Assembly: GCA_902585415.1 (NCBI GenBank)
Contig: CACIDN010000007.1
Span: 1 to 64,000, forward strand
Direction of reading: 5' to 3'
DNA length: 64,000 nt
Source: an uncultured Pelagibacteraceae bacterium
GTDB taxonomy: Bacteria; Pseudomonadota; Alphaproteobacteria; Pelagibacterales; Pelagibacteraceae
Part shown: positions 18,932 to 21,477 of the stretch, piece after piece
Position numbering within the stretch: the first letter of the stretch is position 1
How the letters are laid out: the number at the start of each line of letters is the position of its first letter
Program-made: the position numbers and the translations under genes
Notes under the pieces: model-generated
The model's input: the letters and a program-made list of their open reading frames with translations, nothing else
Databases searched by the model: none
Told to the model about the DNA's origin: nothing

Positions 18932-18938
18932 ACTTTTA

Positions 18939-18971
18939 TTTAATCCTCTGTTGTGCGGACAGAGGATTAAA
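18939..18971. terminator. Perfect 12-bp hairpin between convergent GYD and DsrE-like genes
   Basis: TTTAATCCTCTG (18939-18950) pairs perfectly with CAGAGGATTAAA (18960-18971) around a 9-base loop. It lies 8 bases after the GYD stop and 15 bases before the stop of the DsrE-like gene, where a shared terminator would be expected. Neither strand has a proper run of T after the stem, so it is a weak intrinsic terminator at best. Confidence 0.5.
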
Positions 18972-18985
18972 AACCCTGACTTAAT

Positions 18986-19363
18986 TTAAAGTGTGATTAC
19001 TTGGTCAGGTGGATTAGGACCAAGAGCTGTATATAATTGAGGAAAACAACCAGCAACAACACCATCAACTAGACCTTTTGCTTTAACTTCCCCACTACCA
19101 CATTGCTCAAAAGTACCTTCTGCTAATTCTCTTCTAACAGCACATTGATCGCAAACCATAAGAAGCATTTTCTTCTCTTTTGCGATTTTAGCTAAACGCT
19201 CTCCTACTGGATTACCTTTTTGAAGACACATAATATTATCATCGAAGAAAAACATTCCAACAACACTAACTAAATGAGAATTATCCTCTAGCTGAGGTAA
19301 TATCATAGTGCCTAATTGAAAAGTACTTGCCATATTACTTTTAAAAACGTACGCGATTTTCAT
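18986..19363 (-). CDS. Cysteine-rich DsrE/DsrF-like (SaoD-type) protein
   Basis: The 125-residue protein has the start of a DsrE fold (MKIAYVFKSNMASTFQLGTM) and the segment VVGMFFFDDNIMCLQKGNPVGERL. Five cysteines stand out: C46, C71 and C74 in VCDQCAVRREL, C88 and C106. DsrE relatives carry sulfur as persulfides or take part in thiol chemistry, but the function of this branch is unknown. AAGGAG is well placed before the ATG at 19363. A 32-bp palindrome begins 23 bases upstream of the ATG and probably controls this gene alone. Confidence 0.75.
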   Translation of the reverse strand: MKIAYVFKSNMASTFQLGTMILPQLEDNSHLVSVVGMFFFDDNIMCLQKGNPVGERLAKIAKEKKMLLMVCDQCAVRRELAEGTFEQCGSGEVKAKGLVDGVVAGCFPQLYTALGPNPPDQVITL

Positions 19364-19385
19364 AAATAAACTCCTTAATTGTTAA

Positions 19386-19417
19386 ATGTTATATTATAAC
19401 ATGTTATAACATAACAT
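19386..19417. promoter_or_regulatory. 32-bp palindrome upstream of the DsrE-like gene, probable operator
   Basis: The centre TTATAACATGTTATAA (19394-19409) is a perfect 16-bp palindrome. The arms ATGTTAT and ATAACAT extend it symmetrically to 32 bp with only one mismatched pair. It lies 23 bases upstream of the ATG of the DsrE-like gene, where a dimeric repressor or activator would bind over the promoter. The half-site GTTATAAC also occurs in AGTTATAACT just upstream of the ExaC-type aldehyde dehydrogenase gene. The regulator is unknown. Confidence 0.6.
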
Positions 19418-19478
19418 ATTTCAAAAAGGTAATAAGTCAAGTTTCATATTATCTTTAACTAAAATATTTATTATTAGA

Positions 19479-19829
19479 TTAATTTTTTTTGTCGTTGTCT
19501 ACGACTAAACAAATTTCTGATTTTGTCAGGAATCTTCGACCTGTTCCATTGTCTAAAGAAAACATTCCACCAATACCTTGAACAGCATCAATAGTTAAAT
19601 CAGTGTGTTTCCATTTTTCATATTGATCATCATTCATATAAAAAGGAACACCACCAATTTCTCCAAGTTTAACATCGCTATTACCTACTAAATATTCTTT
19701 TCTAGGATAGCACATTGGAGCACTGCCATCACAACATCCACCTGATTGATGAAATAAAAGCTCATCGCCGTGTTGAGCTTTAATATCTTCAAGAAGTTTT
19801 AATGCAGATTCTGTTGCTTTAACTTTCAT
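19479..19829 (-). CDS. DUF779 family protein
   Basis: I choose the ATG at 19829 (MKVKATESALKLL) because the longer frame from 19862 starts inside the GC-rich hairpin. The 116-residue product has the DUF779 signature HQSGGCCDGSAPMCYP with three cysteines, then GVPFYMNDDQYEKW and a C-terminal GTGRRFLTKSEIC. The family is nearly always encoded beside acetaldehyde-type aldehyde dehydrogenases, as here. The biochemical role is unknown, but cysteines and His suggest metal or redox function. Confidence 0.9.
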   Translation of the reverse strand: MKVKATESALKLLEDIKAQHGDELLFHQSGGCCDGSAPMCYPRKEYLVGNSDVKLGEIGGVPFYMNDDQYEKWKHTDLTIDAVQGIGGMFSLDNGTGRRFLTKSEICLVVDNDKKN

Positions 19830-19836
19830 ATAAATT

Positions 19837-19862
19837 ATGGCCCGTGATTCCTCACGGGCCAT
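19837..19862. other. GC-rich perfect 11-bp hairpin between aldehyde dehydrogenase and DUF779 genes
   Basis: ATGGCCCGTGA (19837-19847) pairs with TCACGGGCCAT (19852-19862) around the loop TTCC. This is the most GC-rich structure seen in any spacer of the window. On the transcribed (minus) strand it lies just after the aldehyde dehydrogenase stop and eight bases before the DUF779 start, with no T-run behind it. An RNA processing or stability element, or an attenuating hairpin that sets the ratio of the two proteins, seems more likely than a full terminator. Confidence 0.6.
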
Positions 19863-19879
19863 TATATATTAATTATTGT

Positions 19880-21433: not shown

Positions 21434-21477
21434 AGTTATAACTTTTATGACTTTCTTAAATTTTTATATAAAGTCAT
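21434..21477. promoter_or_regulatory. Palindrome and inverted repeat upstream of the ExaC-type aldehyde dehydrogenase gene
   Basis: AGTTATAACT (21434-21443) is a perfect 10-bp palindrome 12 bases upstream of the ATG. Next to it ATGACTTT (21447-21454) and AAAGTCAT (21470-21477) form an 8-bp inverted repeat with a 15-base spacer. Both could be operators. The first shares GTTATAAC with the DsrE-gene palindrome. Confidence 0.4.

Follow-up and report, generated by a model that had tools for sequence, protein, structure and literature searches.

The 32-bp palindrome at positions 19386–19417 of the window, the whole 64,000-nucleotide stretch of DNA analysed here, is very probably a tandem operator for Zur, through which the gene for a DsrE-family protein would be repressed until zinc becomes scarce. 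A Zur operator is a known kind of element, here in an unusually symmetric tandem form, and no report of a Zur-regulated DsrE gene was found in the literature searched, with most subscription journals outside its scope. The original prediction also took the palindrome for the operator of the DsrE gene, and the site does look regulatory and is kept in related strains. In place of the ArsR- or TetR-type regulator that had been suggested, however, we propose Zur, a zinc sensor of the Fur family.

The palindrome and its two boxes

The features discussed below are the following (a strand is given where one applies; the scores and matches are those of the window sequence).

19386–19417: near-perfect palindrome of 32 bp, formed by two abutting predicted Zur boxes as a tandem operator (from the sequence, a palindrome scan and box searches)
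19387–19401: predicted Zur box 1, TGTTATATTATAACA, core GTTA-TATTA-TAAC; an exact match to the 7-1-7 consensus, with the core motif as in PMC4176598
19402–19416: predicted Zur box 2, TGTTATAACATAACA; differs from the consensus at one position and is spaced 15 bp from box 1
18986–19363, minus strand: DsrE-family gene (NF040913, SaoD/DsrE family), 125 residues; 197.9 bits against a cut-off of 152
19371–19376, minus strand: Shine-Dalgarno-like AAGGAG, 7 nt before the ATG of the DsrE gene (from the sequence)
19413–19440, minus strand: candidate sigma-70 promoter TTGACT-16-TATGTT, 9/12, weak; its –10 element overlaps the end of box 2

The palindrome, ATGTTATATTATAACATGTTATAACATAACAT, has 15 of its 16 pairs matched and a perfect core of 16 bp, just as first described. 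It was also said to be the largest symmetric site of the window. A scan of all 64 kb finds it to be the sole loop-free 32-bp palindrome with no more than one mismatched pair, and not one arose in 20 simulations of the window under a first-order Markov model. Both of its boxes contain a GTTA-N5-TAAC core. Its reported position just upstream of a DsrE-like gene is likewise correct, with 22 bp between the palindrome and the ATG of a gene whose product scores over the NF040913 cut-off. The site is conserved in related strains, the DsrE box being exact in 9 of 9 loci from close relatives. The closest relative from the genus search (G379, locus L021), with a 99% identical DsrE protein, has both boxes in exact form and a palindrome with every pair matched.

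The candidate promoter of the window is at chance level on its own (2 found, 2.4 expected). In three loci with the xthA–znuA context (L026, L027 and L029), TTGACA and TATGAT are separated by a 17-bp spacer that the box fills, which is the placement expected of a repressor site. The DsrE promoters of 20 genus genomes have either one box or two, set 5 (overlapping), 15 or 21 bp apart. At znuC/znuA, 28 of the 29 loci examined have a further box spaced 18 bp from the exact copy. Downstream in the window, where the GYD and DsrE genes converge, a hairpin with no clear T-run on either strand lies between them at 18937–18973.

The box and a Zur-like gene in the host genome

The host assembly comprises 1.04 Mb and is 82% complete. 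Allowing one mismatch at most, TGTTATANTATAACA occurs in it at three places, namely both boxes of the palindrome and one site between znuC and znuA; only two loci therefore carry such a box, the upstream region of DsrE and the znuC/znuA intergenic region. The latter also has a copy with two mismatches, 16 bp from the better one. Across the assembly, a scan allowing two mismatches gives chance-level results (16 sites, where the reversed control has 19), so we give no interpretation to such sites outside znuCA.

Three Fur-family genes are present in the assembly, two of them on contig C2. The Zur-like gene is on another contig than the window and directly follows znuC–znuB, with znuA divergent; these neighbours are recognised as ZnuA by PF01297, as ZnuB by PF00950 and, for ZnuC, as an ABC ATPase. 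The protein has a Fur-family domain (PF01475, over cut-off), and of the NCBIfam models the one for Zur, NF008646, scores highest with it, at 67.5 bits and below the cut-off of 167. Its only solved relatives at E values up to 0.001 are the Fur-family structure 7dh7 and 4mtd, the Zur of E. coli. Its two CxxC motifs align with Cys103, Cys106, Cys143 and Cys146 of 4mtd, the structural Cys4 zinc site, described as such for E. coli Zur in PMC4219657 (this and the other papers cited here are drawn on from excerpts of their text). Three of the four residues of the E. coli sensory site (His77, Cys88, His96 and Glu111) also align, with Asn in place of His96 near a gap; sensory ligands are described as differing in position among Zur proteins (PMC6103462). 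The SAR11 Zur-like protein encoded at L013:4398–4784 has an extra cysteine near the Asn that aligns with His96.

The box and zur across the genus

Of the 399 genomes in a genus set, 209 contain TGTTATAWTATAACA, the box in its exact form, and 2 contain its reversed control. When 30 of the box loci were examined, they gave 31 sites, of which 29 lie between znuC and znuA, one at DsrE and one before a His-rich frame. This last is a second exact box in its locus (L059:2664–2678); the open frame that it precedes, of at least 105 residues, has by eye a signal-peptide-like start and has no Pfam match, and Zur may regulate it too in SAR11.

Of the 399 genomes, 265 have a homologue of the Zur-like gene. 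It is present in 202 of the 209 genomes that have the box, compared with 63 of the 190 that do not, the match between box and zur thus being broken by 7 box genomes and by those 63 zur genomes. In published work znuA was reported in 50% of SAR11 genomes, always with an adjoining Fur-family gene (PMC4771312). An exact search with a 17-bp form of the box in 61 genomes returned four sites, two at DsrE, one at znuC/znuA and one at COG0523/DUF1636. In another family of the order, the exact 17-bp box is found between divergent genes for a COG0523 GTPase and DUF1636 (L010:465–1940). The sequences themselves establish the predicted boxes, the zur gene, the restriction of the box to znuCA and DsrE in the host genome at one mismatch, and the conservation of the site.

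The box travels with the DsrE gene

The DsrE gene is accessory in the genus, being present in 21 of 399 genomes. In 20 of its promoters there the best box has no mismatch (14 cases), one (5) or two (1). The 20 loci represent four contexts: five follow ExaC–DUF779 as in the window, six stand between an xthA-like gene and znuA, one immediately follows zur, and eight lie beside an RbsD/FucU-family gene; two of the four contexts thus adjoin zur or znuA. More contexts, that of L074 for example, occur among the named DsrE loci (the best 80 of 158, whose single-cell and metagenome titles may be misassigned).

Comparison of these contexts indicates that the box belongs to DsrE and not to the neighbours in the window. 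Of 36 ExaC–DUF779 loci, 30 were examined, and a box with at most one mismatch was found in 0 of the 28 that lack DsrE and in both of the two that have it. One genome (G034) has matches to the ExaC, DUF779, GYD and second ALDH proteins at 96–98%, and has neither DsrE nor the box. In 58 of the 80 named loci, such a box lies upstream of 40 of 57 DsrE genes, compared with 13 of 476 other upstream regions, all 13 being those of znuA or znuC. The zur gene is found in 17 of the 21 DsrE genomes, and the four without it are 71–86% complete; across the genus the association of DsrE with zur is not significant (p = 0.16). In two named loci, L116 and L136, the DsrE frame is broken early, after 21 and 32 residues respectively, by decay or sequencing error.

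Neighbouring frames in the window showed some features of their own. Upstream of ExaC, seven of nine close relatives (L065–L070, including L068, and L073) have the ExaC frame open for some 53–54 residues further towards the N terminus, and these extra residues, rich in lysine and serine, stand in place of the upstream sequence of the window. A hairpin with GGCCCGTGA arms, at 19834–19865 between ExaC and DUF779, covers the upstream ATG of DUF779 (19862). The true start of DUF779 is probably a later Met, since the alignment of 28 of 36 relatives begins no earlier than residue 10–12.

Alternative explanations

The original prediction went further, in that a half-site recurring before the nearby ExaC gene, GTTATAAC, was thought to place DsrE and ExaC under one regulator. 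The recurrence is genuine to the extent that AGTTATAACT is present at 21434–21443, just before the ExaC start. The window contains GTTATAAC 3 times, however, where 1.37 copies would be expected, and a count of 3 is reached in 17 of 100 shuffles, so that its recurrence is not notable. The copy of AGTTATAACT before ExaC is without the TG...CA ends of the box. Only 2 of 9 close relatives retain it, although at the same loci each of the nine has an exact DsrE box; the half-site looks unrelated to that box. With the half-site poorly kept, its recurrence at chance level and no box in the 28 ExaC–DUF779 loci that lack DsrE, we dropped co-regulation of ExaC, and see virtually no likelihood of a single regulator acting through GTTATAAC.

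A different protein might nevertheless use the operator, either one of the other two Fur-family regulators, those encoded on contig C2, or an unknown dimeric repressor. Fur-family boxes in general are AT-rich inverted repeats, and the genome does contain two further Fur-family genes. Against this, the box lies between znuC and znuA in 29 of the 30 genus loci examined, zur accompanies it in 202 of 209 genomes, and it has the core of Caulobacter Zur sites (PMC4176598) and the 7-1-7 symmetry of the Sinorhizobium Zur box (PMC7029138), all of which makes another regulator quite improbable. A long symmetric site, beside a gene that occurs in several genomic contexts, could also suggest an RNA element (an attenuator or terminator hairpin) or a recombination site rather than a repressor operator. 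Yet the conserved unit is the 15-bp box, which occurs singly or in repeats whose spacing varies, and not a 32-bp hairpin; the divergent znuC/znuA promoter has the same box, and a terminator scan of 18950–19500 found no terminators. The hairpin or terminator reading was dropped given the empty scan and the conserved box, and we regard an RNA or recombination function as extremely improbable.

With Zur as the preferred regulator, the following mechanism can be envisaged. Zur, whose gene follows znuC and znuB on a different contig of this genome, would when zinc is sufficient sit as Zn-Zur dimers on both abutting boxes over the DsrE promoter, blocking transcription. When zinc is scarce Zur would be released, and the DsrE protein would be made along with the ZnuABC zinc importer. 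Binding of Zur at the palindrome, repression and the response to zinc are what we infer from the sequence comparisons.

The DsrE-family protein

The protein scores 117.5 bits with the SaoD model NF040732, under the cut-off of 169. In an alignment of 30 sequences (the window protein and 29 from the 80 named loci, picked for diversity) Cys71, Cys74, Cys88 and Cys106 are invariant. Its AlphaFold model is a confident DsrE fold (pLDDT 91), for which a fold search matched YchN, DsrE, MTH1491 and chain A of TusBCD with Z scores of 10.9–11.2 and rmsd values of 3.3–3.8 over 107–112 residues. When the DsrE alignment was compared by sequence with solved structures, nothing was found at E values up to 0.1. 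With E values up to 10, DsrE (2hy5) ranks third at 0.83, a weak match in which Cys71 aligns with DsrE Cys78, which we take to be the sulfur-carrying cysteine.

What might such a protein do for a cell short of zinc? Its thiols could possibly handle zinc, transfer sulfur or replace a zinc-dependent step. Because of the COG0523 neighbours described below, zinc handling is perhaps the role to be preferred, though tentatively. Most likely, we infer, its thiols serve the cell's response to zinc starvation, and it may either handle zinc together with COG0523 zinc-chaperone GTPases or cover a sulfur-transfer step while zinc is short.

DsrE relatives in other lineages

Of 158 DsrE loci found, the best 80 were compared: a box with at most two mismatches lies within 120 bp in 50 of them and is absent in 30; of the boxless loci one (L090) is titled Pelagibacterales and the rest bear other names. 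Zinc-linked gene kinds occur within 5 kb in 31 of these best 80 of 158 loci, comprising 11 SAR11 znu loci and 20 others, a raw count that has no random-window baseline, for which 4 of the 10 reference proteins were drawn from these same loci, and in which three positives (L116, L125 and L134) rest on one weaker match each. In 15 of the 20 others a COG0523-type GTPase, of the zinc-chaperone type, is near DsrE; HisI, DUF1636, DUF1826, WD40 and ZnuC-like genes are also among the neighbours.

A search for the exact GTTA-N5-TAAC core in 17 named loci out of the 80, most of them richer in GC and from other lineages, found none. When the best 7-1-7 palindromes were sought in 31 of the 80, TGCAATAnTATTGCA, TGTAATAnTATTACA and TGCAACTTAGTTGCA stood out in nine, each alone being weakly unusual (shuffle fractions of 0.05–0.16), and 13 of the 31 had no such palindrome with at least six matched pairs. 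Lineage-specific Zur boxes may exist in these other lineages, and we offer this as a lead.

On balance, and by a narrow preference, we suggest that the DsrE family of NF040913 is a widespread and unrecognised arm of the zinc-starvation response: a four-cysteine DsrE fold, under Zur in marine alphaproteobacteria and linked with COG0523 in other phyla, that would move zinc or sulfur between thiols under zinc shortage, and that in SAR11 would form a small mobile cassette with its own Zur operator. Trace-metal uptake in SAR11 is described as cut back, with high-affinity zinc uptake the exception (PMC4771312). For a SAR11-like genome, in an assembly that is 82% complete, znuCA and DsrE now make up a predicted two-locus Zur regulon. 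An uncharacterised DsrE family is tied to zinc limitation, and a family that NCBIfam names only 'SaoD/DsrE family protein' acquires a testable role.

Comparison with known systems

Caulobacter Zur sites have a GTTA-N5-TAAC core (PMC4176598), and the Sinorhizobium Zur box is a 15-bp inverted repeat of the 7-1-7 type (PMC7029138). The boxes described here share with these alphaproteobacterial ones, as far as the excerpts go, the 7-1-7 symmetry, the core and the znu targets, but differ in that they abut at 15 bp, producing the 32-bp palindrome, and in that their target is a DsrE-family gene. At znuABC in E. coli, two cooperating Zur dimers are reported to bind (PMC4219657), and the two boxes of the palindrome would similarly take two dimers of a protein whose four structural-zinc cysteines align with those of 4mtd. 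In contrast, Asp49 and Arg52, which link the dimers in E. coli, are here Phe and Gln, and His96 is Asn. Since the dimer-linker residues are not retained, cooperativity, if any, must arise otherwise.

Finally, the DsrE protein resembles the DsrE/TusD/YchN sulfur-transfer family (2hy5, 2d1p and 1jx7) in its predicted fold and in the alignment of Cys71 with DsrE Cys78 (E 0.83). It differs from them in having three further invariant cysteines (74, 88 and 106), a promoter with predicted Zur boxes and, at some loci, adjoining zinc genes. Zur-linked clusters in which COG0523 genes accompany HisI paralogues, WD40 proteins and, according to a figure legend, DUF1826 are described in PMC2770081. The word DsrE occurs 0 times in the available text of that paper, whereas COG0523, HisI, WD40, DUF1826 and ZnuC-like genes are also found near DsrE outside SAR11.
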